This document shows, piece by piece, positions 1 to 15,970 of a stretch of 33,508 nucleotides of DNA. Source of the DNA: an uncultured Blautia sp. (GTDB lineage: Bacteria; Bacillota; Clostridia; Lachnospirales; Lachnospiraceae). The notes beneath the pieces were generated by a model that did no database searches, was not told the DNA's origin, and worked only from the letters and a program-made list of their open reading frames with translations. The position numbers and the translations under genes are program-made. The stretch covers positions 1 through 33,508 of the forward strand of contig CALWSM010000010.1 in the NCBI GenBank assembly GCA_944384185.1, written 5' to 3'. The stretch's first letter is position 1. The number at the start of each line of letters is the position of its first letter.

Positions 1-254
1 TAATTCTGAAAAAGATATCCTACCTTCCGCTCCTGAGGCTTCAGATTGATCTTCCTCTCGCTGTCGAAAAGCACCCTGCCGTCCAGGACGATCCTCCCCT
101 GATCCGGTTTTTCAATTCCTGCCACAGCCTTCAGCGTCATACTTTTTCCGCAGCCGGAAGCCCCCAGAAGACCGGTAATGCCTCCGGGATGTTCCAGATC
201 TACAGAAAGCTGAAAATCTCCCAGTTTCTTCCGTATATGGATGGAGAGACTCAT
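1..254 (-). CDS. modC: Molybdate ABC transporter ATP-binding protein ModC (partial, N-terminal 84 residues)
   Basis: The gene starts at ATG 252-254 and runs off the left edge of the window, so only about 84 N-terminal residues are visible. These contain a Walker A motif GASGCGKS and a Q-loop region ending VGYLFQN, typical of an ABC transporter ATPase. The start overlaps the modB stop as ATGA (251-254), which implies translational coupling. Together with the permease and the binding protein upstream, it makes a complete molybdate (or tungstate) importer; the ATPase would sit on the cytoplasmic face. The ABC-ATPase family is clear from the motifs. The substrate is inferred from ModA and ModB. 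Signature motif, Walker B and any C-terminal TOBE domain lie outside the window. Confidence 0.9.
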   Translation of the reverse strand, partial: MSLSIHIRKKLGDFQLSVDLEHPGGITGLLGASGCGKSMTLKAVAGIEKPDQGRIVLDGRVLFDSERKINLKPQERKVGYLFQN

Positions 255-928: not shown

Positions 929-1845
929 CCTGCCTCCACCCTGGAGAAGCCTACTTTTTCAAAGATCTCCATACAGGGATCTGTCTGCAGGAAATCCAGG
1001 AAAGCCTGAGCCTCTTCCGGATACCGGCTGTTTTTCATAACTGCGGCAGGATAGATCACCTGGCCGCACATTTCCGCCGTGGCATAGTCTGAAGCCGTAA
1101 GCCCTGCGGAGTAAGCGTCTGTACAATAGATCACGCCGCAGTCCACAGTGCCTTCCGAAACCTGGGTAGTTACTTCCTTTACATTACTGCCGTAAGAGAT
1201 CCGGCCGTCTGCGGCCAGCTCCTCTTCATTCAGACCGTAATACGCCAGGATCTTCTGGGTATACTGTCCTACCGGCACGTCGCTGTTTCCCATTCCGAGA
1301 AGAATGGTTCCTTCCTTCAGAGCCGCCGCCATATCGTCAAAAGTCTCTAACGGTACGCTGCTGCTCTCGCTGACACATAGCACAACCTTATTTTCCAGGA
1401 TATCGATCCTGGAATCCTCCAGCACAAGATCCAGTCCTTCCGTGTTCACCGACGAATCTGCCCTGCTGTCCATCTGATCCATCTGGGTCTGTCCTGCGGA
1501 AATAAAAAGATCACAGACGGCGCCTTCCTGGATCTGGGTCTTTAAGGTTCCTGAGGAATCAAAATTAAAGACCAGGCTTACATTGGGCTGCTCTTCTTTA
1601 TAGAGCTCACTGATCTGTGTAAGCGTCTCTGTGAGAGAGGCTGCTGCAAATACCGTCAGTTCCGTCTCTTCTCCTCCGTCAGCCGTTTCTGTGCTGCCAG
1701 AAGCTGTTCCTTCAGCCTCTGTTCCCTCTGATGGGGCTTCTTTGGCGGATTCCTCAGATGTTTCTGCGCCGCTTTCCCCGGCGCATGCTCCCATGGCGAA
1801 CATCATTGTGCCTGCCAGCAGTACTGCAAAAACCTTTTTTTTCAT
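925..1845 (-). CDS. modA: Molybdate-binding lipoprotein ModA
   Basis: A 306-residue extracytoplasmic solute-binding protein. The N terminus is a lipoprotein signal peptide (MKKK, a hydrophobic run, then MGAC with Cys20 as the likely lipidated residue). A Ser/Thr/Glu/Gly-rich linker of about 40 residues follows. The mature domain carries the ModA signatures: VFAAASL, FDSSGTL, a DLFISAG segment (the ADVFIS block), SDVPVGQY and GVIYCTDA. It would capture molybdate outside the membrane and pass it to ModB. The start ATG 1843-1845 has a GGAG site 8 nt upstream. A strong promoter lies about 140 nt upstream, so the transporter can be made apart from the genes before it. Oxyanion specificity (molybdate or tungstate) is inferred. 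Confidence 0.94.
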   Translation of the reverse strand: MKKKVFAVLLAGTMMFAMGACAGESGAETSEESAKEAPSEGTEAEGTASGSTETADGGEETELTVFAAASLTETLTQISELYKEEQPNVSLVFNFDSSGTLKTQIQEGAVCDLFISAGQTQMDQMDSRADSSVNTEGLDLVLEDSRIDILENKVVLCVSESSSVPLETFDDMAAALKEGTILLGMGNSDVPVGQYTQKILAYYGLNEEELAADGRISYGSNVKEVTTQVSEGTVDCGVIYCTDAYSAGLTASDYATAEMCGQVIYPAAVMKNSRYPEEAQAFLDFLQTDPCMEIFEKVGFSRVEAG

Positions 1846-1983: not shown

Positions 1984-2012
1984 ATTATAGCAATCTTTTT
2001 TGATTTTCTCAA
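1984..2012 (-). promoter_or_regulatory. Strong sigma-A promoter for modABC
   Basis: On the minus strand TTGAGA (2007-2012) and TATAAT (1984-1989) are separated by exactly 17 nt. The -35 box overlaps the stop codon of the upstream HAD gene (2009-2011). The implied leader before the modA ATG is about 135 nt and contains an imperfect inverted repeat, CGTG-6 nt-CACG. The leader could hold a molybdate-responsive element, but I see no recognisable riboswitch or ModE box. Confidence 0.7.
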
Positions 2013-2695
2013 GCAGGTTCCTCTATTTTAACGATTTCTCCTTCCCGGATCCCGTAACTTTCCTCATTATTTTTTCTCCATCTCAGGTCTTCTTTTTTAT
2101 CCCCGAGGAAAAACAATTTCCGTTCTTCCTCCGGCGCCGCAGCGGCAAAAAATTTATCTTTTTTATTCCATATGGTAACGATCTCCCCATATCCTGCAGG
2201 ATTTTTTCCTCTATAGTAAAGCTCGTTGGCCAGCACCCGAATCCCATTTTCTGTGATCCCCTGTGCCTCCAGCCAGAAACGGATCACGTTTCCTAAACCT
2301 GCGGAAACGATCCAGACCGGCAGGCTTTCCCTTCTGCAGAATTCCAGCAGCTCCAGAGCTTCTCTCCGGGGCGGCAGCAGCTCTGCCGTCTTTTTTAATA
2401 TCTCCTCGCTGATCTTCTCCCTTACATACAATTCCATCTGTTTCTGCCACCAGACTTCCGCCTTTTTATACAGCTCTTTTTTCTCCTCTTCCTTCCTCTG
2501 CAGATCCCCTGCCGCCTCCAGAATCTCTCTTCCCATTTTCTGAAAAAGCCGGTCCCGTCCTGCGGCCAGCCCGGAGGCTTTCCCCAGTACATGGACAGCC
2601 CCGTGAAGAGAGCTTCCGGAGAGGGTCAGAGTTCCGTCAAAGTCCGTCACCAGTATTCCCCTGCTCCGGAGCAGACCCTCTTTGATCCTGTTCAT
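2009..2695 (-). CDS. HAD-family phosphatase
   Basis: A haloacid dehalogenase superfamily hydrolase of about 228 residues. Motif I is DFDGTLT near the N terminus, motif II is the Ser of WIVSAG, motif III is a Lys in the NKKDK stretch, and motif IV is LGDKKEDL. A helical cap of about 70 residues lies between motifs I and II. I chose ATG 2693-2695 because GGAGG stands 8 nt before it. ATG 2708-2710 (five residues longer) is possible with a weaker GGAG site. Either start overlaps the end of the ModE-like gene by roughly 60-75 nt, which is unusually long. The substrate is unknown. Its place in a molybdenum-cofactor operon suggests a phosphorylated nucleotide or pterin, but that is inference. Confidence 0.8.
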   Translation of the reverse strand: MNRIKEGLLRSRGILVTDFDGTLTLSGSSLHGAVHVLGKASGLAAGRDRLFQKMGREILEAAGDLQRKEEEKKELYKKAEVWWQKQMELYVREKISEEILKKTAELLPPRREALELLEFCRRESLPVWIVSAGLGNVIRFWLEAQGITENGIRVLANELYYRGKNPAGYGEIVTIWNKKDKFFAAAAPEEERKLFFLGDKKEDLRWRKNNEESYGIREGEIVKIEEPA

Positions 2696-3038
2696 CCTCG
2701 GTTCCTCCATAATACCGCTCCATTACGGCATCCGCCGCCGCCCAGGCGGCCTTTTCCGCTTCTTCATAGGCTTCCAGCATTTTCCGGCCTTCCGCCGTGA
2801 GAGTGGAACCATTCTTCCTCATACGGTGCAGCAGCTGTATCCCCAGCGCCCCTTCCGCCTGGCGCACGATACGCCAGGCCTTGCTGTAAGCCATTCCCAT
2901 ATGCCGGGCCGCCAGGTTCAATGAGCAGAACTGGTCCACACCGTGAAGGAGATCCGCCACTCCCCTGCCAAAATATTCATTTTCTTTATCCTCCCGGCGC
3001 TTGATACGCAGCCGGGCAATATAATAAAATTCGTTCAT
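2637..3038 (-). CDS. ModE-like winged-helix DNA-binding protein without molybdate-binding domain
   Basis: A 133-residue protein that resembles the N-terminal LysR-type winged helix-turn-helix domain of ModE. The recognition region is LNLAARHMGMAYSKAWRIVR, followed by a wing segment ending in GSTLTAEGRKML. The ModE C-terminal TOBE/molbindin repeats are missing: E. coli ModE has about 262 residues. It therefore probably cannot bind molybdate by itself in the ModE manner. ATG 3036-3038 is preceded by GAGGG. A longer reading frame up to 3158 only shadows the AMP ligase gene. It may regulate the operon or the mod promoter; the target is unknown. Confidence 0.8.
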   Translation of the reverse strand: MNEFYYIARLRIKRREDKENEYFGRGVADLLHGVDQFCSLNLAARHMGMAYSKAWRIVRQAEGALGIQLLHRMRKNGSTLTAEGRKMLEAYEEAEKAAWAAADAVMERYYGGTEDEQDQRGSAPEQGNTGDGL

Positions 3039-3055
3039 CTGCGTTCCCTCTGCCT

Positions 3056-4276
3056 CTATGTCTTCTCTTCCTTCTCTATCCTGCGCTTTCCCCGGTAGCG
3101 GGGTCCATCCTCCAATCCTGCCGCTCTCCAGGTACTGCCAAGTTTCCTTCCTTTCCACTCCTTCGGAAGCAGGCCGCCGGCTTTTTCCTCCATCCCCCTC
3201 TCTGTGGTAAGCCCCTGGATCCTAAGGTTCTCTCCTTCTCTCACGACCCGGTAATCCACCACCCACGGGAGCCGGAAGATATAGTCGTCCAGTTCTTCCA
3301 TTTCTCTCCCCTCCCCGATCCTGCTGACCCGATCCAGCCGCCGCAGGCAGCAGCCGCAGGGACAGATTCCCGGCAAAAAGCGGCTTCTATCCCCTGTGCG
3401 GTAGCGGATCAGGGGCATAGCCCGGGCTTCTGTCAGCGTCACTGTAAGCTCTCCCCATTCTCCTTCCGGCACCGGCCTTCCCTTCTCATCTACAATTTCC
3501 CCGATCATATCGTTTTCTCTCAGATGCATTCCCTGAAAGGCCGGACATGTGACAGCCCCTCCAAGTCCCATTTCCCGGGAGCCGTAGTGGGGATACAGTC
3601 TGGCGCCCAGCAGCTCTTCGATGGACTTTATCACCCCAGGCGGGCAGGCGTCGCCGCTGACCAGTCCTCTTTTGATACTGTTCTCCGGCTTCATGCGGAG
3701 CAGAGACAGCAGCAGTACAGGAGGGCCTATAAAGGTATCCGGCCTCTCTTTATCCAGAAGCTCCAGCATTTCCCCGAAGGTTTTCCGATTTCCTGCGGGC
3801 ACCGGCACAGCTCCCAGCCCTTCCACCGCTTCCTGTATCAGCTCTCCCAATCCTCGGTCTCCCGTATAGGGCATGGCGATCATAGACTTTTCTCCCGGAT
3901 CGATCAGTTCGGACAACCCTGCTGCAAAAAAGGACACCGTCCGGTCATTGTCCCGGCTGGTGTAAAAGACTCTTTTTGCAGGCCCTGTGGTTCCGGATGT
4001 TTCCCAGCTCCGGACTCTCTCGATCTCTGACTGGCTGACCAGGACCATCCCGTTCCCCTGTTCGATCAGATCCTTCTCTGTAGTAAAGGGCAGAGTTTCC
4101 AGTTCCTTCAGAGAATCCAGACGCCGGGGCAGATTCCGGTAAAATCCCTGCCTGGCAGATTCCCTTTCCAGAAGCCGGTTCAGTTTTTCCAGCTGCAGTC
4201 TCTCTATCCCCTGACGGTCCAGGGTTTTTATCCCTTCCTTCTCTTTGACCCAGGAATCCAGTTTCGCTATGTTCAT
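3056..4276 (-). CDS. AMP-forming ligase of the PaaK/F390-synthetase type (DVU_1553-like)
   Basis: A 406-residue adenylate-forming enzyme. The ATP-binding P-loop is TSGTTGPAK (residues 93-101). The later adenylation motifs are YPHYGSREMG, then GEWGELTVT and RYRTGDRSRF. A Cys-rich patch GICPCGCCLRRLDR follows the hinge Asp region, as in phenylacetate-CoA ligase and coenzyme F390 synthetase relatives, where such cysteines can bind zinc. The family activates a carboxylate or adenylates a cofactor; the substrate here is unknown. It overlaps the radical SAM gene upstream by ATGA (4273-4276) and is 17 nt from the ModE-like gene, so it is co-transcribed. The DVU_1553 family name is from memory and should be confirmed by an HMM search. 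Confidence 0.82.
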   Translation of the reverse strand: MNIAKLDSWVKEKEGIKTLDRQGIERLQLEKLNRLLERESARQGFYRNLPRRLDSLKELETLPFTTEKDLIEQGNGMVLVSQSEIERVRSWETSGTTGPAKRVFYTSRDNDRTVSFFAAGLSELIDPGEKSMIAMPYTGDRGLGELIQEAVEGLGAVPVPAGNRKTFGEMLELLDKERPDTFIGPPVLLLSLLRMKPENSIKRGLVSGDACPPGVIKSIEELLGARLYPHYGSREMGLGGAVTCPAFQGMHLRENDMIGEIVDEKGRPVPEGEWGELTVTLTEARAMPLIRYRTGDRSRFLPGICPCGCCLRRLDRVSRIGEGREMEELDDYIFRLPWVVDYRVVREGENLRIQGLTTERGMEEKAGGLLPKEWKGRKLGSTWRAAGLEDGPRYRGKRRIEKEEKT

Positions 4277-5967
4277 CTGTACAAAGTCCTCCCATCCGCT
4301 CCGGTCAGATTATAAATGCAGAACGGCACCATGCCGTACCGGCTGTCCGTTTCCAGAATATAGCACCGGCGCAGACGGTCCAGTTCCAGATTCCAGGCGT
4401 CCTGGAACAGCATACCGGAAACCGCCAGGGTATTTCTGTGGATCTCCTTCAGAAAGTCATCCAGCGAAGAGGTATCCAGAACCAGTCTTCCCGTGTCTTC
4501 CCCGCAGCAGCAGGTTTCTTCCTGAGGCAGCTCCCCACAGCAGCCCCCTTCTTCCCGGGGCGGCTCCCCGCAGCAACAGGTTTCTTCCTGAGGCGCTTCC
4601 CCGCAGCAACACTCACCGGCTCCTGTCCACTGGCGGGCTACAGAATCCCGGGCCTGTTCCGACAGGCCGGAAGTCCTGGGCTCCCCATGAGCCAGAAGCT
4701 TCATGGAGCCGTCTTTCTGTCTGAGATAATTGGCCTGGAAGGTACAGTAAGGATTGGTGGCTCCTCCTCCGGTAAAATCCCCGGCGCTGATCCAGCCTTC
4801 TGTCTGTTCTTCCATAAGGGCCAGCATTTTGGGTATGGTGATCCGGTAACTGCCTTTGGCCTGGCTGCAGCGCCCGAAATAACTGACCGGCTGAAAATGG
4901 ACCCCTCTTACCGCCGGCATCCGGCTTCTGGCATAAGAAAGGATCTCCCCCACCTGGTCTTCATTGACTCCCGGAGCGATGACCGGAACCAGCACCACGC
5001 CCAGTCCTGCCGCCTCGCAGGCGTCGATGGCCTTCTTCTTGATCTCCAGCAGAGGGCGGCCTCTTAAAGCCTGATATACGTCATCTTTCAGGCCGTCAAA
5101 CTGCAGGAAGACACAGGAAAGCCCTGCTTTTTTCAGCTTCTCTGCATATCCCGGCTCTTCTGCCAGACGGATCCCGTTGGTGTTCAGCTGAAAAAAGGTA
5201 AAGCCAAGTTTTTTTCCAAAATGAAGGATTTCTTCCAGATCTTCCCGTACCGTAGGTTCCCCGCCGGAAATCTGGAGATTAAAAGGTCCTCCGTGTTCCA
5301 TGAGATACTGCATCTGGTCTTTCAGCTCCTCCAACGGTACGTCCCGGCCTTGGGGGCCGGATCCGGCAAAGCAGGTGGGGCACCGGAGATTGCATCTTCC
5401 GGTCACTTCCAGCAGGACGCAGCAGCCCCGGCGCTGATGCTGTTCGCAAAGACCGCAGTCTAAGGGGCAGCCCTGTCTTTTGGGAAGGGCTGCAGGGATC
5501 CTGTCCGGAGGAAGGATCTGTCTGCCCCAGTCCCGGTAGCTTTCCAGGCTTCCTTCCCAGATCAGCGCCTCAGACTTTCCATGCTCCGGGCATTCCTTTA
5601 CCAGATAGATCCCATCTTCTCTTACTGCTTTTTTTGCCGGCAGGACTTTCAGGCATACGGGGCAGAGGCTCTCTCCCTTTTCCTCTAAATAGATTTCCTG
5701 ATCTTTCAGCCACTCCTCCATCCGGGCCTTTTCCTCTTCCCAGTTCCCGGCTGTATAATTGATCTTCACAACCTTTTCCTTTAAGATCCCTTTCACCTCC
5801 AGCGCTCCCTTCTTTGCAGAAAAGACCGGACGGCGGAACCGATGATTTTCTTTTATCTCAAACCCTTCCAGCCTTGCAGCCAGCTCCTCTCCGGTGATCG
5901 GCAGTTCATATTCATAAGTTCTGGCTTCTGCAAAACAGTTTTCTGTCTTTTTCCATTTAAATTCCAT
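4273..5967 (-). CDS. Radical SAM protein, TrsS-like, with Cys-rich tandem repeat
   Basis: A 564-residue radical SAM enzyme. The [4Fe-4S]/SAM motif is CNLRCPTC (Cys192, Cys196, Cys199), and the SAM-binding strand is QISGGEPT. N-terminal to it are extra cysteines: a zinc-knuckle-like CPVC (102-105) with Cys126 in CPEHG, and Cys167/171/174 in CPLDCGLC. This layout resembles the MJ0619/Tes branch, whose members methylate pterin precursors or join lipids, and I believe it is the family named TrsS. Near the C terminus, residues 453-490 form an 11-residue tandem repeat of CCCGE units with 11 cysteines. The gene lies between the cysteine desulfurase and the AMP ligase in the same operon. No in-frame TGA is present, so this copy is a Cys form, not a selenoprotein. 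The reaction is unknown. Confidence 0.83.
   Translation of the reverse strand: MEFKWKKTENCFAEARTYEYELPITGEELAARLEGFEIKENHRFRRPVFSAKKGALEVKGILKEKVVKINYTAGNWEEEKARMEEWLKDQEIYLEEKGESLCPVCLKVLPAKKAVREDGIYLVKECPEHGKSEALIWEGSLESYRDWGRQILPPDRIPAALPKRQGCPLDCGLCEQHQRRGCCVLLEVTGRCNLRCPTCFAGSGPQGRDVPLEELKDQMQYLMEHGGPFNLQISGGEPTVREDLEEILHFGKKLGFTFFQLNTNGIRLAEEPGYAEKLKKAGLSCVFLQFDGLKDDVYQALRGRPLLEIKKKAIDACEAAGLGVVLVPVIAPGVNEDQVGEILSYARSRMPAVRGVHFQPVSYFGRCSQAKGSYRITIPKMLALMEEQTEGWISAGDFTGGGATNPYCTFQANYLRQKDGSMKLLAHGEPRTSGLSEQARDSVARQWTGAGECCCGEAPQEETCCCGEPPREEGGCCGELPQEETCCCGEDTGRLVLDTSSLDDFLKEIHRNTLAVSGMLFQDAWNLELDRLRRCYILETDSRYGMVPFCIYNLTGADGRTLYR
4498..4611 (-). repeat. 33-bp coding tandem repeat encoding CCCGE(x)PxEE units
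   Basis: Inside the radical SAM gene an 11-codon unit is repeated about 3.5 times (residues 453, 464, 475 and 486 each begin CCCGE or GCCGE, then a Pro and two Glu). Synonymous changes between copies (TGT/TGC, GAA/GAG) suggest that the copies have been kept at protein level. The unit supplies 11 cysteines in about 38 residues. Confidence 0.92.
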
Positions 5968-5989
5968 CTTTAAAATCTATCCTCCGATC

Positions 5990-7138
5990 TCAGGCTTTTT
6001 CCGTCTCATCTCCGCATAGAGCGGCCACAGCTTCCAGCACCCTGTCCACATCTGTCCTTTCCGTAAAACGGGACAGACTCAGACGTATGGTTCCCCCAGG
6101 CGTTCCAAGGTTCTCCATGATCCTTGGAGAGCAGTGGAGCCCTGTCCGGCAGATAATATCATAACTGCCGGATAAAATATCTCCGGCCTCCTCCGGGCTC
6201 CAGCCTGGAATTGTAAAAGAAAGCACCGGCATGACCGGAGGCTTTGGCTGGATCACCTGGCAGCCCAGCGCCTTCAGTCCATTTCCCAGATATTGAAGGA
6301 TTTCTTCGGTTTTCTCCCGGTTCAGGGGATTCTCCTGCGCCCACTGCAGGGCGGCAAGAAGGCCGTGGTAAGAAGGCTCGTTTCCGGTCCCTGCTTCCAG
6401 ATGGAGAGGCATTTCTTCCGGCATCTCTCTCAGATTGCTTTTTACCCCGGTGCCTCCCAGCACATAAGGCTTCAAAGTAAGCCCCGGCCGGACATAGACC
6501 CCTCCGGTTCCCTGGGGTCCCAGCAGATATTTATGTCCCGTAAAAGCCGCCATATCTGCTCCCCATTTTTCCAGCTCCACAGGGATCCAGCCCAGACTCT
6601 GGGATACGTCCAGGAGCATAGCGGCTCCGGCGTCTTTCGTCATGGCCGTCAGGGTCTGTGCATCATTGACGGCGCCTGTCACATTGGAGGCATGGATCAG
6701 CACGCACAGCCTGGGCCGGTATTTTCTCAGGGCTGCTTTCCACTGCTCCGGCTCTATCCGCCCGGTCTTATCCACATCCAGATAGATCACCCGGATCCCC
6801 TGTTTTTCCAGCCGATGCAAGGGCCGGAGCACTGCGTTATGCTCCGCCTTCGTGGTCAGCACCCGGTCTCCCGGCTCCAGAGGGAAACCGAAGACAGCCT
6901 GGTTCAGCCCCCAGGTGGAATTGCTGCCCAGGGCGATCCTTTCCGGACAGGAGATCCCCAGCAGAGCCCCCAGTTTTTCCCGTACCTGTTCAAAGACATT
7001 AAATTCCCGGATCCCGCCCCTTCCGGCGTCTCCCGGCAGGCTCCTGAGAGCCCGGGAAACAGCCGTGACTACACAGTCCGGTTTCGGCCAGGAGGTAGCT
7101 GCATTGTTCAAATATACTTTTCCCTCATAATCTTTCAC
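5990..7138 (-). CDS. Cysteine desulfurase (class V aminotransferase fold)
   Basis: A 382-residue PLP enzyme related to SufS/NifS. The PLP-binding Lys is Lys203 in TGHKYLLGPQG. His100 (AEHNA), Asp177 and Gln180 (LLDVSQS) complete the cofactor site. The catalytic Cys336 lies in RTGLHCSP. It would take sulfur (or selenium from selenocysteine) from the amino acid and pass it on as a persulfide. The start is GTG at 7136-7138 with a GAGGTGAT site, overlapping the end of the nucleotidyltransferase gene by 14 nt. The neighbourhood suggests that it supplies sulfur to the molybdenum cofactor or to an Fe-S protein of this operon, as NifS4 does for XdhC in Rhodobacter. The sulfur target is inferred. Confidence 0.9.
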   Translation of the reverse strand: MKDYEGKVYLNNAATSWPKPDCVVTAVSRALRSLPGDAGRGGIREFNVFEQVREKLGALLGISCPERIALGSNSTWGLNQAVFGFPLEPGDRVLTTKAEHNAVLRPLHRLEKQGIRVIYLDVDKTGRIEPEQWKAALRKYRPRLCVLIHASNVTGAVNDAQTLTAMTKDAGAAMLLDVSQSLGWIPVELEKWGADMAAFTGHKYLLGPQGTGGVYVRPGLTLKPYVLGGTGVKSNLREMPEEMPLHLEAGTGNEPSYHGLLAALQWAQENPLNREKTEEILQYLGNGLKALGCQVIQPKPPVMPVLSFTIPGWSPEEAGDILSGSYDIICRTGLHCSPRIMENLGTPGGTIRLSLSRFTERTDVDRVLEAVAALCGDETEKA

Positions 7139-8204
7139 CTGTCATCACCTCAAATTCTTTTATCAGCCGACGGCAGATTTCCATATCCTGTAAGATACGT
7201 TTTTTTACCTCTTTTTTCTCCAGCGCTTTCCGGTATCTCTCCTCCAGAGATACACGTCTGCTCTCCATAGTCAGTTTATCCGCCAGACACACCAGGACCT
7301 CCTCTTGGCAAAGAGTATCCGGCTCCTGTGCAAAGCCTCTGTGGGCTCCCGCTACTGCTGCCAGCGCCAGATAGCCCTTTTCCTCCAGAAAGTCCCCCAC
7401 CGCTTTTTCATGAAAGGGCTCCAGCCGCAGCAGATCATGAAGACAGCCTCCGCTCCTGCAAAGCTCGATATCCAGGAAAGCGCCTGCCTCTGTCAGACGC
7501 CGGGCCATCCAGGCCGCCAGTTCTCCTACAGCCCTGCAGTGGGCCCGGATATGGGCAGGGAGATTCACTTCCTCATAGAGCTCTTCACACAGCTTTTGGG
7601 AAATCCCCCTGTGCCCTCTGGCGTACTCCCGGATACGGGCAAGGTCTTTCTGATCATCTGCGTCCATCCGGGCCCCTGCATCTGCTGTCTCTACGGTTTT
7701 TATCTTCATGGCGCCAAAAGCACCCTGAAGTCCCCCGCCGCCCTGATAGGCCAGCGCTTTCCGGCAGCCTGCCGGGAACAGAAAGGGGGGATGAAGGGTT
7801 TTTCCTCCCGAAGCTGGGATAAGGGCCTCTGTCCCCGGCTCTGCCCGGGAAATTCCCTCTTCCAGTCTTTGAAAGGTTTCCGGGGAGGTCAGAGGAATAT
7901 CCCCGGGAAGAAAAAAGACGCCCTCTCTCTTATCCACAGCCGCAAGTCCCAGCTTCACAGAGGCCAGCATATCCGTATCCTGCCAGGATGGGTTTTCTAC
8001 GATCTTTACCCTCCCGGGTCCCAGCGCCGCCCTTATCTCTTCTCCCCGGTATCCCACAACCACCGTAATATCTCTTATACCGGCGTTTTCCATGCTTTGG
8101 ACCGTCATAGCGATCATAGGGAATCCGTTTATCTCCAGCAGCGGCTTGAACCCTTCCATCCGTCTGGATCTTCCCGCTGCGGCGATCAGCCCTGCTCCTT
8201 TCAT
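7125..8204 (-). CDS. MocA-like nucleotidyltransferase fused to an HD domain (DVU_1551-like)
   Basis: A 359-residue two-domain protein. Residues 1-195 are a MobA/MocA-type NTP transferase: LIAAAGRSRRM near the N terminus with Lys20 in FKPLL, then FLPGDIPL (98-105), and DADD (181-184). Residues about 205-350 form an HD-type domain with HIRAHC (218-223), LHDLL (His256-Asp257) and GAHRGF. MocA enzymes attach CMP to molybdopterin to make the dinucleotide cofactor used by xanthine dehydrogenase-family enzymes, so this one probably prepares the cofactor of the neighbouring hydroxylase. The HD domain could be a phosphohydrolase acting on the same cofactor. ATG 8202-8204 overlaps the previous stop (ATGA) and has an AGGAGG site. 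A frame extension to 8348 is only a shadow of the C-GCAxxG gene. Confidence 0.85.
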   Translation of the reverse strand: MKGAGLIAAAGRSRRMEGFKPLLEINGFPMIAMTVQSMENAGIRDITVVVGYRGEEIRAALGPGRVKIVENPSWQDTDMLASVKLGLAAVDKREGVFFLPGDIPLTSPETFQRLEEGISRAEPGTEALIPASGGKTLHPPFLFPAGCRKALAYQGGGGLQGAFGAMKIKTVETADAGARMDADDQKDLARIREYARGHRGISQKLCEELYEEVNLPAHIRAHCRAVGELAAWMARRLTEAGAFLDIELCRSGGCLHDLLRLEPFHEKAVGDFLEEKGYLALAAVAGAHRGFAQEPDTLCQEEVLVCLADKLTMESRRVSLEERYRKALEKKEVKKRILQDMEICRRLIKEFEVMTGERL

Positions 8205-8629
8205 GGCAATCCTCCTTTTTCCGAAAGGAGTTCCACACATTTCTGATAGACTTCTTCCACAAGCTCCGGACATCTTTGCATCTTGTTTCCCGGATTTCCA
8301 TCCAGGATCTCCCGACAGGTACAGCCGCCGTACCGGCTTTTGGTCCATTCTTCAAACCAGTCCGCCAGCTTTTCCATCAGAATGGAGGCCTCCGGATCCT
8401 CCAGCTCTTCCGCCTCTCCTTTTCCCAGAAAATATCCCAGGAAACAGCAGCCTCCGGTAAGAGCGCCGCAGACTCTTCCGGAAAAGCCAAGGCCTCCGTT
8501 TAATCCGCTCATAGCCCGGATCAGATCCGGGTCCTCCTTTTCTTCCGATTCCAGAGCCAGGATCATTAAAATCTGGGCGCAGTAGAAGCCCTGCCCCGAC
8601 AGTTCCAGCATACGCTCAAATAAATCCAT
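8201..8629 (-). CDS. C-GCAxxG-C-C family redox/metal protein (DVU_1555-like)
   Basis: A 142-residue soluble protein of the C-GCAxxG-C-C family. Cys17 is in the first helix (FYCAQ). The core motif reads VCGALTGGCC (Cys54, Cys61, Cys62). Further cysteines are at 103, 105, 120 and 131. Members of this family are thought to hold a metal centre or redox cysteines, but the biochemical role is not known. The start ATG 8627-8629 has a strong AAGGAGGGG site and overlaps the methyltransferase stop by 14 nt. Its stop overlaps the next start. It is part of the same operon. Confidence 0.85.
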   Translation of the reverse strand: MDLFERMLELSGQGFYCAQILMILALESEEKEDPDLIRAMSGLNGGLGFSGRVCGALTGGCCFLGYFLGKGEAEELEDPEASILMEKLADWFEEWTKSRYGGCTCREILDGNPGNKMQRCPELVEEVYQKCVELLSEKGGLP

Positions 8630-9215
8630 TTTCCCCTCCTTTCCTGAGGCAGGCCAGGAAATATCCGCACCCGGCTTTTCCTGCCTCTATGAAAAAATCC
8701 ATACAGTTTTTCTCTGCGTTTCCGTTCCAAAGGCTCTCCAGGAAAAATTCCTTCCATGCTTCTGTTTCGTCCTTTGTCTCCTCGATCCAAAACCCCGCCT
8801 GCTCAAAAGCTTCTTTCCAGCAGTTCCAGGTCAGCGGCTTTCCCATAGACAGGGAAGGCGCCTCCTGCTTTCGGAAAAAAACATCGGCGATCAGCAGACA
8901 GCCATCCTTTTTCAGTACCCGGAACGCTTCTTTAAGGGCCGCATTTCCGTCTCCGCAGCCGGAGACCGTGCATTCCGCCAGGCAGCAGTCAAAGCTTTCT
9001 CCCGCAAAGTCCAGCCCTCTCATATCTCCCTGCTCCACCTGGGGGCCTGAGGGCTTCAGATCCACCGCCCTTACTTCAAATCCCAGGGCTTGCAGATATA
9101 CCGCTGTCTTTCCCTCTCCTGCTCCCAGCTCCAGGATCCTGGCAGGAGGACGGATCCCCGGAAGAGCCAGCAGCCTGGCCGTCATCTCCAGCCCGCCGGG
9201 ATGGCGGCCAATCAT
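8616..9215 (-). CDS. SAM-dependent methyltransferase, TrsM-like (DVU_1556-like)
   Basis: A 199-residue class I methyltransferase. Motif I is ILELGAGEGKTAVYLQ, motif II is VRAVDLKPSG, and the post-I region contains FDCCLAECTVSGCGDG, followed by ALKEAFRVLKKDGCLLIADVF. The cysteine cluster in the motif IV region is conspicuous. The C-terminal part ends in AGKAGCGYFLACLRKG. I start it at ATG 9213-9215, overlapping the redox-protein stop as ATGA. The 53 extra upstream codons in frame antisense-shadow that gene. It belongs to the set I recall as TrsM/DVU_1556, found beside TrsS. The methyl acceptor is unknown; a pterin or metal-thiolate is a possibility. Confidence 0.83.
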   Translation of the reverse strand: MIGRHPGGLEMTARLLALPGIRPPARILELGAGEGKTAVYLQALGFEVRAVDLKPSGPQVEQGDMRGLDFAGESFDCCLAECTVSGCGDGNAALKEAFRVLKKDGCLLIADVFFRKQEAPSLSMGKPLTWNCWKEAFEQAGFWIEETKDETEAWKEFFLESLWNGNAEKNCMDFFIEAGKAGCGYFLACLRKGGENGFI

Positions 9216-9430
9216 TTGTCCTCCAGGCTGCGCTCCACGGTAAGGACTTTTCCTACCGCCAGCTCCTCGGGTACGTAAATATAACCGCATTCCGGACATA
9301 CCGGCAGTTCTACCGGGAACGCATTGCCAAGATAACTGAAAACCGCCCTTCCTCTGACCAGTTCCTTTTTGCATTTATGGCATTTCAGTTTTCCCATGGG
9401 ATCCATGGAATAATAAGTTTTTTCTCCCAT
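9212..9430 (-). CDS. Small zinc-ribbon/rubredoxin-like redox protein (DVU_1557-like)
   Basis: A 72-residue protein with two Cys-x2-Cys knuckles: Cys17/Cys20 (KCHKC) and Cys45/Cys48 (VCPECGYIYVPEE). The layout is that of a rubredoxin or zinc ribbon. It may carry electrons or hold zinc. I recall this family as DVU_1557, next to the TrsM methyltransferase in other genomes. It starts at ATG 9428-9430, 11 nt after the dicluster gene, and its stop overlaps the methyltransferase start. Confidence 0.8.
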   Translation of the reverse strand: MGEKTYYSMDPMGKLKCHKCKKELVRGRAVFSYLGNAFPVELPVCPECGYIYVPEELAVGKVLTVERSLEDK

Positions 9431-9441
9431 CTGCCCCTCCT

Positions 9442-11664
9442 TTACTCCACAGTCATCCGATGGCTGTAAGCGCCATATACCAGATAGCCTTTCTCTGTCT
9501 CTGTAAACTTCACCCAGAAGGTAACATTACCCATCCTGGCAGAAGCCGCCAGCCATCCCTTTTCCGGATCCTCTACGGCTTCCCCTGAAGCTTCGTAAGC
9601 CTTCAGTACAGCTTCCACATCGCTTTTCAGGATCATACGCCTGTCCATTTCTTCTTCCGCTCCATCTTCATAAAAAACCGGCAGCATATCCTCTCTCCTT
9701 ATTTCTTCCTTCCAGATTTCCTTCTGGAGTTTTTCCTTTAATCTCAGACGGTTTGCCCTGCGCTGTGACAGATCCGGCACCGAAGGGGCGCCGGTTCCAT
9801 AGGCCAGCTCCAGGATATGTATGGAGTCCGCTCCTGCCCGGGTCAGCTGATCCCTGCAGGCCATGCAGTAGGTCAGGATCCTTCCGGAGGTCCTGCCCGC
9901 CGCAAAGGCCGCCTTCTTTTCCGCCATTTCGGGATCCGCAAAGCGGACCATTCCCCCGTATCCGCAGCAGGGGGCCAGATCCCCGGAAAGAGGCATCTCT
10001 TCTACCTTACAGCCCAGAGCCTCTGCGAAATCCCGGATCTGCTCCTGGGTCCTGGCATCGCCTCTGGCTCCGCAGGCGTCCTGTATGGCCACAGTCTGCT
10101 CTGTCACCGGTTCTGTTCCCAGTTCCAGGAGAGTCTGCCATACCCCTACTGCGGGAATTTCCGTTCTTTCCCTTAATATCTTCATACAGGTGGGGCAGGC
10201 GCAGATCACCTGAGGCTCCCCCATCTCTTTCCAGGCGGTTCGGATCTGTTCCAGCGCCTCTGCGGCCAGGTCTTCTCTCCCTGCCCATTGGGCCAGGGCC
10301 CCGCAGCAGCTAAGGAGCAGCCCTACCCCTCCGGTCAGCCTGCCGGACAGGTCCCGGTAAGCAGCCTCTGCGGTATCCGGGGACACGGCAGACGCCTGGC
10401 ATCCGGGGAAAAACAGATACCGGCAGCGATCATATCCCGGTGCAGATCTGGCCAGAAACCCTTCCCTGCAGGAAAACTGCTGATCCAGAAGTCCGAATTC
10501 ATGGGCGGAAGGAGGCATTTTCTCCGTCTCCACCATGATCTGCCGGGCCATTTTGCATACCTCCGGATAATCAAATCCGTTGGGACAGGCCGACTTGCAC
10601 TGCCCGCACAGGTCGCAGGCATTGATCAACCCGTTTGCCATATGATTTCCCATAACGATGGAAAGATTGTTGTAGATCTCCCGGATGGCCCCTCTGGGAT
10701 TCTTCTTATACTCCTGGAAATACACACAGCCCTTTATACACTCCAGACACTGACACTGTATGCAGCGTCCGGCCTCTGCCGCCGCCAGCTCTCGGTCCGG
10801 TTTTTCCCAATCTGTAAAAGCCCGGCTTCCCTCCACGCCGTCCATGGTCACATATAGACGGCTCTCCTGTGGCCCCGGCTTCCGAAGCCCTTCCGAGGAG
10901 GCTCCCTGAAGATAACGTTCCGCCTTAGCCGATACATATTTCGCCCACGCCAGTATCCAGGCAGCTCCGTCTTTCTTTTCCCAGCTCTGTTCTGTTCCGA
11001 AGATGTTTTCCGGCAGGCCGGTGCGCCACAGATCCGGAGACAGGCATACCGCATCCCCCCATGCCGCCCATTCAGAGACCTCTCCTGCTCTCTCCTTTTT
11101 TGTCATACGGAAAAGCTCATAAGAAGCGGTATCTGCCTCTGCCTCCTCCTCTGTAAGTCCCCAGGATAGCAGAGGCTCCTTCCGGTTTTTGCACCGGGTG
11201 TACCAGAAGATCTCATAGCCCTTCCTGCCCAGTTCCCAGCAGCAGGCCAGGGCAAAAAGATCGTCGCCCCCTACGATCACCTTTTTATTCTTTCTGGGGA
11301 TCAGGAAGCGGCTGCCTCTTTCTTTTCCCCCATACAGAGCGCAGGCCTTTTCCAGAGTCCTCACCTGGATCCCTTCCCCGATCCGGGATAAGGCGCAGGC
11401 TTCCTGGCAGACTCCGGGACAGCTCTTTGCCAGAAGGTGGAGAAAGGGAGTAACTCTCCGGATCACTCCCGCCCCTTTTACAAAATCCCCCTTTGCCCCG
11501 TAGGCGCAGACCGTCCGTATATCCAGATGAAGGGGGCATGCCGCCGTACAGCCCGGAGGGTCTTCTCTGGTGCAGACGGCTTCTCTTCGATGAAGCTCCT
11601 CCTGGCCAAAAGCCTGCTTCATTAAATAATGTTTTCCCACAAAGCCCCGATCTTTATGTTCCAT
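9442..11664 (-). CDS. Multi-cluster Fe-S oxidoreductase: GltD-like N terminus, ferredoxin and two CCG domains
   Basis: A 740-residue fusion protein. Residues 1-110 resemble the Fe-S domain of glutamate synthase small subunit (Cys31, 39, 43, 82, 86, 90). Residues 128-290 occupy the place of the flavin/NADPH module but are short, and the dinucleotide motif is reduced to VIVGGDDLFALACC. Residues 301-360 bind two [4Fe-4S] clusters (Cys301-x2-Cys304-x-Cys306-x2-Cys309-x3-Cys313; Cys350, 353, 356, 360). After about residue 425 there are two heterodisulfide-reductase CCG domains (FFPGCQAS...SCCGALAQW; QDACGAR...PCCGYGGM). I recall a family named pyridine nucleotide-disulfide oxidoreductase/dicluster-binding protein found near selenoprotein genes. 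It probably moves electrons for this pathway. It begins about 50 nt after the hydroxylase terminator and heads the run of packed genes. Confidence 0.82.
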   Translation of the reverse strand: MEHKDRGFVGKHYLMKQAFGQEELHRREAVCTREDPPGCTAACPLHLDIRTVCAYGAKGDFVKGAGVIRRVTPFLHLLAKSCPGVCQEACALSRIGEGIQVRTLEKACALYGGKERGSRFLIPRKNKKVIVGGDDLFALACCWELGRKGYEIFWYTRCKNRKEPLLSWGLTEEEAEADTASYELFRMTKKERAGEVSEWAAWGDAVCLSPDLWRTGLPENIFGTEQSWEKKDGAAWILAWAKYVSAKAERYLQGASSEGLRKPGPQESRLYVTMDGVEGSRAFTDWEKPDRELAAAEAGRCIQCQCLECIKGCVYFQEYKKNPRGAIREIYNNLSIVMGNHMANGLINACDLCGQCKSACPNGFDYPEVCKMARQIMVETEKMPPSAHEFGLLDQQFSCREGFLARSAPGYDRCRYLFFPGCQASAVSPDTAEAAYRDLSGRLTGGVGLLLSCCGALAQWAGREDLAAEALEQIRTAWKEMGEPQVICACPTCMKILRERTEIPAVGVWQTLLELGTEPVTEQTVAIQDACGARGDARTQEQIRDFAEALGCKVEEMPLSGDLAPCCGYGGMVRFADPEMAEKKAAFAAGRTSGRILTYCMACRDQLTRAGADSIHILELAYGTGAPSVPDLSQRRANRLRLKEKLQKEIWKEEIRREDMLPVFYEDGAEEEMDRRMILKSDVEAVLKAYEASGEAVEDPEKGWLAASARMGNVTFWVKFTETEKGYLVYGAYSHRMTVE

Positions 11665-11714
11665 ATATCCTCTCCTATGTTTAATTATCTATTTCAAGAA
11701 TAATATTCGGGTAA

Positions 11715-11741
11715 AACAAAGCGGGGAATCCCCGCTTTGTT
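11715..11741 (-). terminator. Rho-independent terminator after the molybdenum hydroxylase
   Basis: A perfect 12-bp stem, AACAAAGCGGGG (11715-11726) with its complement (11730-11741), around a 3-nt loop, is followed on the minus strand by TTTTA. It lies 24 nt after the hydroxylase stop and before the dicluster gene. The next operon then needs read-through or its own promoter; I found no convincing promoter in 11665-11714. Confidence 0.85.
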
Positions 11742-11764
11742 CTATATTTTCATTTCCCTGTTTC

Positions 11765-14512
11765 TTACAGAGCATCCAGCGCAGCCTTTACCACTTCCGG
11801 TCTGGCCGGAACTCTGGTGATCCTTGCTCCGGTAGCGCTGTATATTGCGTTAAGGATTGCCGGATGAGGTGCGGCTAAAGGTCCCTCGCCGCAGCCGGCA
11901 GCGCCGTACGGGCCAAGAGGTCTCGGGTGGTTTTCCTGATAAACCAGCTCAATATCGTCGGGAATATCATTGGGGTAAGGAATTCCGCATTTTAACAAGC
12001 TGGTATGTTTCTTCAGATCCTCAAAGTCCTCTGACAGCGCCAGACCGATACCCTGGGCAATGGCGCCCATAACCTGGCCATCCACAACCGTCTTATTAAT
12101 GATGGTGCCGAAATCAGATACCATGGTAAATTTTACAACTTTCACCTTGCCGGTCTCCATATTCACCTGTACTACCGGCAGGTTGATACAATACATGTAT
12201 ACGGAGAAGGGATTTCCCTGTGCGGTTTCCTGATCACAGTCTGTGCATGCGGTTGCCACCCATTTTCCTTCATACTTCAGGGGAAGCTTCTCTTCTACCA
12301 TTTCTTCGTAGGTGCGATACGTGCCGTCTGGTTTTCTCATGGCGTTGACCAGCATCTCTGAGGCAACACGCACTGCATTTCCGGTCATGACATTGGAACG
12401 GGATCCTCCGGCAGGTCCGGAATTCGGCGTCTTTCCTGTATCGTTCATCACCAGCTTGATCTGATCCGGCGTAAAGCCTGCCTGGCGGAGGGTTTCATGG
12501 GCGTGGGTAAGGGTACCGATATCCGCTCCCTGTCCGTGATCCTCCCAGGAATCATAGATCGTCACCGTGTTGTCCGGGTTCAGCTCTGCCCAGGCTTCTG
12601 AAGAGTCCACGCCATCCAGGCCGCAGCCGTAGACACCCAGGGACACGCCGGCTCCATACTTGAATTTACCGTTTTCTCCCTTCTCCTTGTTCAGAGTCTC
12701 CGCATAAGCTTTGTTTTTCTGATAATACGGTCTTGCCAGATCATACAGGTCCTCCAGACAGTATACGTCCGGTTTACAGCCATTTGGGGTGGTAGAGCCT
12801 GCAGATTCCTTATAGCAGTTCATGGCCCGGAATTCAAAAGGATCGATCCCCATTTTCGCCGCCATCATATCCATTGCGATATCGCCGCCCATGAAAGACT
12901 GGGGCGCTCCGTATCCCCGGAAAGCGGCTCCGTATGCATGATTGGTGCAGACTGTCCGCGACCGGTTCCGGATATTGGGAATGTCCACTCCGGCTCCCAC
13001 AAACTGGCTGAGGCGCATGGTCAGCAGGTCACCGAATTCGGAGTACGGGCCGTGATCGATAAGGTTGTCTCCTTCAAGAGCCAGGATCTTGCCTTTCTCA
13101 TCAGCCGCCAGTTTGATATGCATAAAACCAGGGCTTCTCTTTCCGGTATAAGTGATCATCTGATACATGTTAAAATTCAGAGCTACCGGGCGTCCTGTGA
13201 CAAGAGCGGCCACTCCCACCAGGGCTTCTATGGTAGGTGAGAATTTATAGCCGAAGGTTCCTCCTGCATGGAGCTGTATCAGCCGGAGCTTCTCCGGCTC
13301 TACGCCGATACCTGCGCAGATCATGGCGTGGTGGAGATGGATCCCGATAGATTTGGAGTGTATGGTCACTCTTCCTTCCTCGTCTATGTATGCATAGGCC
13401 ACGTCCGGTTCGATGGGCATATGAGGCTGTCTGGAACAATAAGCGTCCATCTCTATAACATTGGGAGCCGTCTCCATGATGGGGGCCGTGTCTTCACCCT
13501 TTATACAGTTGGTCTCATAGTAAATATTCGGCGTACCCGGATGGATCTCCACAGCATCCGGATCCATAGCTTCCGGCGCAGACATGTAAGCGGGAAGCAC
13601 TTCCAGATCAACCTTCACATATTTGGCCGCTTCTCTGGCGTGGGCAACGGTATCTGCGCACACCATAGCGATAGCGTCTCCGTACTGGAACACCTTCTCA
13701 TCACAGAGGATGGGACGGTCCCAGCCGTCTCCCTTATTTGTAGGGAATGTAATAAGTCCGGTGATCCGGTTCTTTCCGGGAACATCTTTATACGTGATCA
13801 CCCGGTATACTCCCGGCATCTGCTCTGCCTGAGAGGTATCGATCCCCTTGATCCAGGCATGGGATACTTCCGCCTGGACCAGTGCGATCTGCAAGGTGCC
13901 CTCCGGAAGGGCCTTGATCTCATCCGCTCCAAAATCCCAGGCTCCGGTCACCTTTGCCGCCGCCGAAGGACGGGCATAGCTGGTTCCCAGGATCCGGTTA
14001 TCCGTAGGCTGGAACATAAGATCTTCTTTTGTGATCTCTCCCCGCAGCACTCTGGCTGCGTCCATCACCGCATCGATCAGCGGCTTGTATCCGGTGCAGC
14101 GGCAGAGATTCCGGTTTTTATTGAACCATTCCCGGACTTCTGTTCTGGAGGGCGAGGGATTATTCTCCAGAAGCACTTTTGCACTCATAATAAAGCCCGG
14201 GGAACAGAATCCGCACTGTGCACAGCCATGTGCGATCCAGGCCGCCTGCAGAGGATGCAGGTCCTCCAGTGTGCCTATGCCTTCAATCGTCTCAATTTTG
14301 GCATAATCCGGCACCTTCGCAATTTTCGTAATACAAGAGCGGGTCACTTTTCCGTCCACGATCACATTACAGGCTCCGCAGTGGCCCTCTCCGCAGCCGA
14401 TCTTACAGCCTGTAAGAAGCAGTCTGTCTCTGAGCACTTCCGCTAAAGACTCGTGGCCCTCTACCACTAAAGTCCGCTGGGTGCCGTTGATCATAAGGAT
14501 TTTTTTTATCAT
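11765..14512 (-). CDS. Mop-type molybdenum hydroxylase (aldehyde oxidoreductase/xanthine dehydrogenase family)
   Basis: A 915-residue single-chain enzyme with the domain order of D. gigas aldehyde oxidoreductase (907 residues). The plant-type [2Fe-2S] cluster uses Cys40, 45, 48 and 60, and the second cluster Cys100, 103, 137 and 139, the same numbers as in Mop. The molybdopterin part contains AAFRGYGAPQ (Arg532, Tyr534) and the catalytic Glu876 in AAGCGEGPL (Mop Glu869). It should oxidise an aldehyde or N-heterocycle using water, with a molybdopterin cytosine dinucleotide cofactor, and pass electrons through the two clusters. There is no FAD domain. The substrate is unknown. ATG 14510-14512 follows an AGGGAGG site. 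The surrounding Mo import, nucleotidyltransferase and XdhC genes fit its cofactor needs. Confidence 0.93.
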   Translation of the reverse strand: MIKKILMINGTQRTLVVEGHESLAEVLRDRLLLTGCKIGCGEGHCGACNVIVDGKVTRSCITKIAKVPDYAKIETIEGIGTLEDLHPLQAAWIAHGCAQCGFCSPGFIMSAKVLLENNPSPSRTEVREWFNKNRNLCRCTGYKPLIDAVMDAARVLRGEITKEDLMFQPTDNRILGTSYARPSAAAKVTGAWDFGADEIKALPEGTLQIALVQAEVSHAWIKGIDTSQAEQMPGVYRVITYKDVPGKNRITGLITFPTNKGDGWDRPILCDEKVFQYGDAIAMVCADTVAHAREAAKYVKVDLEVLPAYMSAPEAMDPDAVEIHPGTPNIYYETNCIKGEDTAPIMETAPNVIEMDAYCSRQPHMPIEPDVAYAYIDEEGRVTIHSKSIGIHLHHAMICAGIGVEPEKLRLIQLHAGGTFGYKFSPTIEALVGVAALVTGRPVALNFNMYQMITYTGKRSPGFMHIKLAADEKGKILALEGDNLIDHGPYSEFGDLLTMRLSQFVGAGVDIPNIRNRSRTVCTNHAYGAAFRGYGAPQSFMGGDIAMDMMAAKMGIDPFEFRAMNCYKESAGSTTPNGCKPDVYCLEDLYDLARPYYQKNKAYAETLNKEKGENGKFKYGAGVSLGVYGCGLDGVDSSEAWAELNPDNTVTIYDSWEDHGQGADIGTLTHAHETLRQAGFTPDQIKLVMNDTGKTPNSGPAGGSRSNVMTGNAVRVASEMLVNAMRKPDGTYRTYEEMVEEKLPLKYEGKWVATACTDCDQETAQGNPFSVYMYCINLPVVQVNMETGKVKVVKFTMVSDFGTIINKTVVDGQVMGAIAQGIGLALSEDFEDLKKHTSLLKCGIPYPNDIPDDIELVYQENHPRPLGPYGAAGCGEGPLAAPHPAILNAIYSATGARITRVPARPEVVKAALDAL

Positions 14513-15903: not shown

Positions 15904-15970
15904 ACGCAAGCTAAAAATATGTTTAAAAACGGCAGTCTCAGATCCTGCCGCCAGGAAAGGAGTTCAGATT

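Follow-up and report, generated by a model that had tools for sequence, protein, structure and literature searches.

What do the genes that follow a molybdenum hydroxylase gene contribute to the enzyme, and why is a radical S-adenosylmethionine (SAM) protein among them? The question is raised by 33,508 nucleotides of DNA from an uncultured Blautia sp. (positions 1 to 33,508 of contig CALWSM010000010.1, assembly GCA_944384185.1; this whole stretch is called the window), in which the gene for a MOP-type molybdopterin-dependent aldehyde oxidoreductase is followed by accessory genes, one of them encoding the multi-cluster radical SAM protein TrsS. This radical SAM module is present in nearly every MOP genome checked, and we hypothesize, with a probability of about one half, that the genes form a support operon dedicated to MOP, in which cofactor supply and redox partners are combined with a TrsS module whose product would be transient or dissociable. 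A first-pass annotation of the same DNA had proposed an operon that makes or loads a chemically modified molybdenum cofactor, possibly a methylated molybdopterin. The operon itself is real and its gene calls hold; the named genes are matched by NCBIfam or Pfam profiles and all lie on the minus strand, from position 14512 down to the start of the window, in the order MOP, DICL, ZNR, MT, CGC, MocA-HD, desulfurase, TrsS, AMPL, ModE-like, HAD and modABC. The hydroxylase and the six core accessory genes are:

11765..14512, minus strand: MOP-type molybdopterin-dependent aldehyde oxidoreductase (NF045668, 1561 bits, cut-off 1100)
9442..11664, minus strand: DICL, dicluster/CCG-domain oxidoreductase (NF045663, 722 bits, cut-off 530)
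9212..9430, minus strand: ZNR, zinc-ribbon-like redox protein of the DVU_1557 family (NF045645, 91 bits, cut-off 60)
8616..9215, minus strand: MT, DVU_1556-type SAM methyltransferase of 199 residues (NF045667, 126.5 bits, under the cut-off of 155)
8201..8629, minus strand: CGC, C-GCAxxG-C-C family protein (NF045669, 167 bits, cut-off 103)
4273..5967, minus strand: TrsS, Tes-type multi-cluster radical SAM protein (NF045646, 556 bits, cut-off 490)
3056..4276, minus strand: AMPL, AMP-forming PaaK-like ligase of the DVU_1553 family (NF045666, 336 bits, cut-off 300)

Co-occurrence of TrsS and MOP

The accessory genes accompany MOP far beyond the window. A scan of relatives with the Desulfovibrio gigas and window MOPs as queries gave at least 593 matches, at least 442 of them encoding relatives; the best 80 were taken, and 45 of these 80 loci, which hold at least 9.5 kb 3' of MOP, could be scored. 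Neighbours 3' of MOP were counted on either strand by tblastn with two query sets at 40 bits or more, and the counts are lower bounds. DICL was found in 45 loci, ZNR in 44, AMPL in 43, and MT, CGC and TrsS in 42 each; with each of the six core genes in 42–45 of 45 loci, the linkage between MOP and its accessory genes exceeds chance. XdhC follows in 33 of the same loci, MocA in 24, a histidine phosphatase in 21, and a cysteine desulfurase and ModA in one each. Loci with the accessory set belong to Desulfovibrio-type and other sulfate reducers, Synergistota, Anaerolineae (Chloroflexi) and the Bacillota member Desulforadius tongensis. The earlier proposal that the operon is tied to a MOP-type hydroxylase is thus borne out, and NCBIfam names the set after DVU_1551, DVU_1553, DVU_1555, DVU_1556 and DVU_1557; its component families are already named there, some after D. 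vulgaris genes. No publication announcing this operon was found in the literature searched, whose coverage leaves out most subscription papers. The operon of the window is a variant of a set known from annotation and not, as far as the literature searched shows, from experiment.

The pairing of TrsS with MOP, one of the checks that the first-pass annotation had suggested, lies far above chance. Among 391 genomes of the window's class (TrsS at E up to 1e-110, MOP at E up to 1e-180), TrsS was found in 15 and MOP in 16 (15 over the MOP cut-off), and all 15 TrsS genomes, which carry eight family labels, also encode MOP. Within the window's own family either gene occurs in one of 16 sampled genomes, namely that of the window, which suggests that the operon was acquired by transfer. 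In the Desulfovibrio family (288 genomes), 173 genomes have both genes, eight only TrsS, 18 only MOP and 89 neither, so that 173 of 181 TrsS genomes encode MOP. Sixteen of the 26 mismatches were traced. Fifteen of them arise from contig ends or from TrsS hits that are split or partial, and the remaining one, G028, is real. Five MOP-only genomes revealed TrsS on closer look (G036, G037, G177, G131 and G132), the E-value cut having missed insertion-rich TrsS proteins in the first three; a 336-bit piece is present in G093, and the operon runs off the contig in G002, G032, G112 and G288. Six of the eight TrsS-only genomes were inspected (all except G115 and G117): a MOP piece lies at the contig edge in G199 and G203, and in G176, G120 and G253 the contig ends before MOP would appear.

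TrsS does not always lie within the MOP operon. In G574 and G625 the operon is complete except for TrsS, which is on another contig; in G643 both TrsS and MT are absent from the operon and TrsS is again on another contig; and in G004 AMPL directly follows CGC in the MOP operon, with TrsS on a different contig and no other operon gene within 20 kb of it. G003 has a first MOP operon without TrsS and, about 11 kb along the same contig, a second, more distant MOP with TrsS, DICL and ZNR. Additional MOPs without an adjacent TrsS set occur in G235, G238, G263 and G387, each genome having one TrsS match. In the first three genomes these MOPs stand alone, except that the edge of L173 shows a 36-bit DICL-like piece; that of G387 comes with DICL and ZNR. 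The displaced TrsS genes, together with additional MOPs in genomes with a single TrsS, fit a TrsS product used by more than one MOP, in which case DICL and ZNR would be the closer redox partners. G006 was dropped as a case of this kind: its MOP operon (L006) is cut off within CGC by the end of the contig, and CGC is also the first gene on its TrsS contig (L175), so that the two may be parts of one broken operon.

A second, more distant type of MOP with a TrsS of its own was also seen (L151, L154, L155, L157, L159, L164 and L206). This type scores 1146–1193 bits in seven matches from the window's class, and CGC lies 5' of MOP in L155, L157 and L159 and on the other strand in L154.

TrsS and its Cys/Sec site

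TrsS of the window, encoded in the MOP operon, is related to the tetraether lipid synthase Tes of Methanocaldococcus jannaschii. Tes (7tol) is its best solved relative by sequence (E 4e-80, followed by MoaA at 1e-14) and the top Foldseek hit of its predicted model (E 1e-39, TM 0.64/0.73; mean pLDDT of the model 75.9, pTM 0.78). The protein scores 314.8 bits against the Tes family NF045702, under the cut-off of 450. Tes is MJ0619, and the authors of the study on this enzyme could not corroborate its role as a pterin methylase (PMC9433317); the analogy to MJ0619-type pterin methylation, drawn in the first-pass annotation, is therefore outdated. Ligand positions were compared in an alignment of 78 proteins of 400–700 residues, taken from 93 distinct TrsS-region frames after shorter, longer and off-frame ones had been dropped; the set includes the window protein and two second copies of tandem pairs, and Tes was aligned in pieces, its middle being absent. 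Three features of the window protein are discussed here:

5371..5394, minus strand: radical SAM CX3CX2C motif of TrsS (C192, C196 and C199), kept in 78 of 78 proteins
5422..5424, minus strand: codon of TrsS Cys182, the Cys/selenocysteine (Sec) site, with Cys in 77 of 78 proteins and an in-frame TGA in L192, L193 and L194
4495..4614, minus strand: four CC(C)GE repeats with 11 Cys in TrsS, in the loop before the C-terminal cluster domain

The window protein has the Tes ligands of the rubredoxin, N-terminal and radical SAM sites, with the N-cluster His taken as His83, and across the alignment the rubredoxin ligands are kept in 77 of 78 proteins, the N-cluster Cys and His in 76 and the radical SAM Cys in all 78. 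In the region of the C-terminal cluster, as far as the partial Tes alignment extends, Met439 and C455 are conserved in 78 of 78 proteins and C470 in 77. The M439A variant of Tes retains robust activity (PMC9433317), and conservation of Met439 is therefore no proof of function by itself. Tyr459 of Tes is described in the same source as conserved in 1,000 archaeal homologues (PMC9433317); at this position 53 of 78 TrsS proteins have Val, Tyr is outside the six commonest residues, and the window protein has Glu. The window protein is alone among the 78 in having four CC(C)GE runs, the others having at most two CC runs.

Cys182, ten residues ahead of the first radical SAM Cys, corresponds to Ile88 of Tes, and in the predicted model it would be the residue immediately before the first barrel strand (183–189). 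Among 81 genomes of the GTDB-type family of G006 (Synergistaceae, within the Synergistota), surveyed at E up to 1e-90, 12 encode TrsS; three of the 12 have one in-frame TGA, always at the Cys182 codon. A tRNA-Sec scored over the cut-off in two of these three genomes, G691 being the exception. Hence, the UGA at the Cys182 codon in the three Synergistota genomes is likely to be read as selenocysteine, a reading with which the '(seleno)protein' in the NCBIfam name of TrsS agrees, and an in-frame UGA at a conserved cysteine would make this a likely active residue. TrsS is also tabulated as a selenoprotein in one review. The best tRNA-Sec candidate of the window's genome reached 43.2 bits, under the cut-off of 47, and TrsS of the window has Cys at this site.

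Tandem TrsS pairs followed by an AMP ligase gene, with no MOP in the stretch, were observed in L156 (586–7202), L158 and L176; L156 further encodes a DUF5714 protein and one resembling 2-hydroxyglutaryl-CoA dehydratase. One N-cluster Cys is missing from the second TrsS copy of both L156 and L158, and that of L156 has lost the Cys182 equivalent as well. A role of TrsS as a replacement of the molybdopterin synthase subunit MoaE in making the dithiolene was considered and rejected as a general explanation, because D. gigas has both proteins; MoaE (PF02391) was matched in 12 of 20 MOP/TrsS genomes, D. gigas included, and unmatched in the other eight, among them the 77%-complete genome of the window (G000). 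Four of the eight are 99–100% complete (G338, G541, G560 and G633).

The cofactor of MOP and a possible product of the TrsS module

MOP of the window combines Fer2, Fer2_2, Ald_Xan_dh_C and two MoCoBD domains in one chain, that is, two 2Fe-2S domains and a molybdenum domain, and no FAD domain was matched in the Pfam search. The protein is 59% identical over its whole length to the D. gigas enzyme (1sij/1vlb) and conserves Glu869, which we take to be the catalytic residue. From this identity we infer molybdopterin cytosine dinucleotide (MCD) as the cofactor. MOP is not filed as a selenium-dependent molybdenum hydroxylase, since it scores 411 bits against the cut-off of 830 for selenium-dependent xanthine dehydrogenase.

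What the accessory genes do to this cofactor can be judged from D. gigas, whose MOP gave the first crystal structure in the xanthine oxidase family (PMC10223205). In genome G224 MOP shows 100% identity with the crystallised protein across 906 residues, and this genome has, 3' of mop, DICL (947 bits), ZNR (93 bits), MT (213 bits), TrsS (632 bits) and AMPL (404 bits), together with CGC, a histidine phosphatase and XdhC (339 bits, cut-off 350); no MocA match was found in the 34 kb covered at this locus. A nitroreductase-family gene sits between mop and the dicluster gene (L099:15951–16568). The 1vlb entry, which groups with 1sij, is the active D. gigas aldehyde oxidoreductase (DgAOR) (PMC3877041). 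Its cofactor is described as MCD, with well-defined pterin rings at 1.28 Å resolution (PMC10223205), and as ordinary MCD in a second paper (PMC3877041). An enzyme related to the window's MOP is thereby seen with an ordinary cofactor next to a TrsS, MT, CGC and AMPL set, which makes a lasting alteration of the pterin very unlikely across MOP enzymes. Locus L077, where MOP shares 91% identity over 403 residues with 1dgj, presumably the D. desulfuricans enzyme, has DICL, ZNR, MT, CGC, TrsS, AMPL and MocA.

The same observations bear on two readings in which the radical SAM and methyltransferase genes leave a permanent mark. The first, a methylated or otherwise lastingly altered molybdopterin seated in the hydroxylase, was suggested by the presence of these genes near MocA and MOP; the published descriptions of the D. 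gigas cofactor (PMC10223205 and PMC3877041) contradict it for an enzyme whose gene stands beside the TrsS set, and its model, MJ0619, has proved to be Tes, with no confirmed activity as a pterin methylase (PMC9433317), so that we consider it the least probable of the explanations weighed here. The second, a post-translational modification of the MOP polypeptide by TrsS and MT, would agree with the close TrsS–MOP pairing and with the occasional location of TrsS apart from the MOP operon. A modification of this kind is absent from what the accessible parts of the papers on the high-resolution structures report (PMC3877041, PMC10223205), AMPL and CGC would be left without a clear role, and we give this reading only a slight chance.

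A further proposal starts from the reported chemistry of the enzyme. In the inactive form of D. gigas MOP one dithiolene sulfur is oxidised (a thione), and dithionite with sulfide reactivates the enzyme (PMC3877041); the redox-rich set of DICL, ZNR, CGC and TrsS might serve to restore the reduced dithiolene of the cofactor. A reductase alone would suffice for this task, and an AMP ligase, a methyltransferase and radical SAM chemistry would be unexplained; such a repair system is accordingly improbable.

It is also possible, though unlikely, that the TrsS set and MOP catalyse successive steps of a pathway, in which an organic compound is made or processed by TrsS, MT and CGC, its aldehyde group is oxidised to an acid by MOP, AMPL activates the acid as an adenylate or thioester and DICL takes the electrons. 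The genes are co-located, AMPL is a PaaK-like, acid-activating enzyme whose nearest solved relatives are phenylacetate-CoA ligases, the formation of acids from aldehydes is the reaction given for MOP-type enzymes (PMC3877041), and the closest solved relative of TrsS works on lipid chains (PMC9433317). However, the neighbouring genes for MocA, XdhC and molybdate import suggest a role in maturation, and in the cases inspected additional MOPs and TrsS-less MOP operons occur where TrsS lies elsewhere in the genome, an arrangement that a simple pathway does not require.

The support operon that we favour would draw on further genes of the window, listed here with the XdhC gene on the opposite strand:

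7125..8204, minus strand: MocA-like NTP transferase fused to an HD domain, for MCD synthesis (NF045665, 276.8 bits, under the cut-off of 315)
5990..7138, minus strand: class V cysteine desulfurase, candidate sulfur donor to the molybdenum cofactor (Moco) (TIGR01977, 307 bits, under the cut-off of 377)
2637..3038, minus strand: ModE-like helix-turn-helix protein (PF00126; ModE_repress, 32.5 bits, under the cut-off of 98.5)
2009..2710, minus strand: HAD-IB phosphatase (TIGR01488, 45.3 bits, cut-off 45)
925..1845, minus strand: ModA (TIGR01256, 115 bits, cut-off 62.5)
251..928, minus strand: ModB (TIGR02141, 210 bits, cut-off 183)
1..254, minus strand: ModC, truncated to 84 residues by the window end (best match modC, 94 bits over 82 residues)
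15863..16999, plus strand: XdhC-family aldehyde oxidoreductase maturation factor (NF045664, 274 bits, under the cut-off of 350)

Three layers can be proposed on top of the observed co-occurrence, ligand conservation and in-frame TGA codons. In the first, which follows from the protein families, molybdate would be imported, MocA-HD would make MCD, the desulfurase would sulfurate MCD held by XdhC, and XdhC would load it into MOP. A precedent exists in Rhodobacter capsulatus, where XdhC is reported to bind Moco, the desulfurase sulfurates Moco there and XdhC loads the enzyme (PMC2997495). In the second layer, DICL and ZNR would take electrons from MOP, which is itself without an FAD domain. The third would be the TrsS module, comprising TrsS, MT, CGC and AMPL and able to serve more than one MOP, including MOPs encoded elsewhere in the genome. 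TrsS, whose conserved residues would bind a rubredoxin iron and probably three 4Fe-4S clusters, would abstract a hydrogen atom from an organic substrate; Cys/Sec182 would be its thiol or selenol partner, and the product would be completed by AMPL and MT. This product might be a dissociable ligand or a carrier, or provide an activating step, in each case acting only transiently on or with MOP and leaving the molybdopterin without lasting change. The main reason to propose a transient or dissociable product is that D. gigas contradicts a lasting change.

Several points weigh against this support operon. The Fisher p values for the TrsS–MOP pairing (7e-46 in the Desulfovibrio family, 4e-26 in the window's class) ignore kinship and are not true probabilities, and, the genomes being related, they overstate independence. 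In eight MOP-only genomes of the Desulfovibrio family a search at E up to 1e-25 gave no TrsS, and two of the family's TrsS-only genomes remain as mismatches. The sixteenth MOP genome of the window's class, G398, is 99% complete; the place of TrsS in its MOP operon is empty, and TrsS was not matched anywhere in the genome at E up to 1e-110, MOP itself being cut there by the contig end. Tandem TrsS pairs occur without MOP in the stretch in G541, G408 and G028, and hence not every TrsS is a MOP partner; the pair is the only TrsS match of G541, where the MOP operon leaves the contig at the point at which TrsS would come, and in G028 it is accompanied by an AMP ligase. The desulfurase is rare, being confined to L161 and to the one scored locus mentioned above, where it is on the other strand. 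D. gigas MOP has an oxo in place of the sulfido ligand and is active in this form (PMC3877041), at odds with the sulfuration layer. Finally, the organic substrate proposed for TrsS is hypothetical, and a metabolic pathway with MOP as one step fits much of the same evidence.

A narrower version of the support operon, which is doubtful at present, would have TrsS, MT, CGC and AMPL build a dissociable organic compound, so far undescribed, which would serve as a cofactor or redox carrier needed by MOP in the cell and lost on purification. If true, this would explain why TrsS is nearly constant in MOP genomes and yet only ordinary MCD is seen in the purified enzyme. MOP has been studied for decades as a stand-alone enzyme, and its genome neighbourhood says otherwise. 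The dispute whether MOP has a sulfido ligand in cells also becomes testable, given the XdhC homologue behind D. gigas mop and the desulfurase in the window.

Gene arrangement and comparison with known systems

The family identities given in the first-pass annotation hold: MOP, DICL, ZNR, CGC, TrsS, AMPL, HAD, ModA and ModB score over their cut-offs, and MT, MocA-HD, the desulfurase and the ModE-like protein match the families expected for them with scores under the cut-off. The score of MT was obtained with its corrected start at 9215, which lies in the ATGA overlap with ZNR, and its neighbourhood fits the family; the start of MocA was corrected to 8204, and that of the ModE-like protein is probably at 3038. 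MocA-HD has the Pfam domains PF12804 and PF01966. The desulfurase has GHK and LHC motifs, which are functional motifs of such enzymes. For CGC, no solved relative was found by sequence at E up to 0.1. The window DICL has no Pfam match to an FAD/NAD Rossmann domain, unlike DICL of D. tongensis (L020), and may therefore have lost its flavin. All genes listed for the 'complete' operon of the first-pass annotation are present, and the XdhC gene on the plus strand had been missed. The window XdhC, which has solved XdhC relatives, has the Rossmann domain first and the CoxI domain last in Pfam, the reverse of the D. tongensis (L020) and D. gigas homologues, and this swapped order lowers its whole-profile score.

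There are exactly five ATGA overlaps, as had been claimed (ZNR/MT, CGC/MocA, TrsS/AMPL, ModA/ModB and ModB/ModC), of which the last two fall in modABC, outside the region 2009–14512 to which they had been assigned; the MT/CGC and MocA/desulfurase junctions overlap by 14 bases. A gap of 163 bases precedes modA. Two possible regulatory sites were noted:

1984..2012, minus strand: promoter-like site before modA (TTGAGA-17-TATAAT, 11 of 12 positions matched)
11715..11741, no strand: 12-bp hairpin between MOP and the accessory genes, with the most pairs among 23 stems

Both are weak, as nine promoter-like sites were found in the scan against 8.0 expected by chance, and 23 terminator-like stems against 15.0, with the hairpin between MOP and DICL scored for the plus strand only; the hairpin might possibly act as an attenuator. 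Just upstream of the XdhC gene, the plus-strand protein at 15049–15903 has a TylF-type methyltransferase domain in Pfam and a weakly NeuD-like N-terminus. Two short frames at 17065–17924 resemble what we take to be remnants of an RhuM-type protein and a DNA methyltransferase.

The DVU_1551–1557-type set (NF045645, NF045646 and NF045663–NF045669) contains the same families as the window in a similar order, represented in D. tongensis (L020) by MOP-DICL-ZNR-MT-CGC-TrsS-AMPL-XdhC-MocA/HD-histidine phosphatase. The window's version is distinctive in that MocA-HD has moved behind CGC, the desulfurase is embedded between MocA and TrsS, HAD takes the place of the histidine phosphatase found in related operons, XdhC lies on the opposite strand with swapped domains, TrsS has Cys repeats and DICL is without a Rossmann match. 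The closest layout is that of L161 (genome G560), where a desulfurase with 51% identity is likewise just ahead of TrsS. An XdhC family protein and a cysteine desulfurase near a xanthine oxidase-family enzyme also recall the XdhC–NifS4 system of R. capsulatus (PMC2997495). However, the cofactor here would be MCD, judging from MocA, and not molybdenum-molybdopterin (Mo-MPT), and the need of MOP for sulfuration is disputed (PMC3877041). With Tes/GDGT-MAS (MJ0619, 7tol), its top sequence and fold match, TrsS shares the rubredoxin, N-cluster and radical SAM ligands and the labile Met439; in contrast to Tes, it stays under the Tes cut-off (315/450), has lost Tyr459 and has its own Cys/Sec in place of Ile88. 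A further close system is that of D. gigas MOP/DgAOR, which shares 59% identity and has DICL, ZNR, MT, CGC, TrsS, AMPL and XdhC genes alongside; it differs in the nitroreductase-family gene after mop, in the histidine phosphatase and in an XdhC gene that stands in line with the operon.

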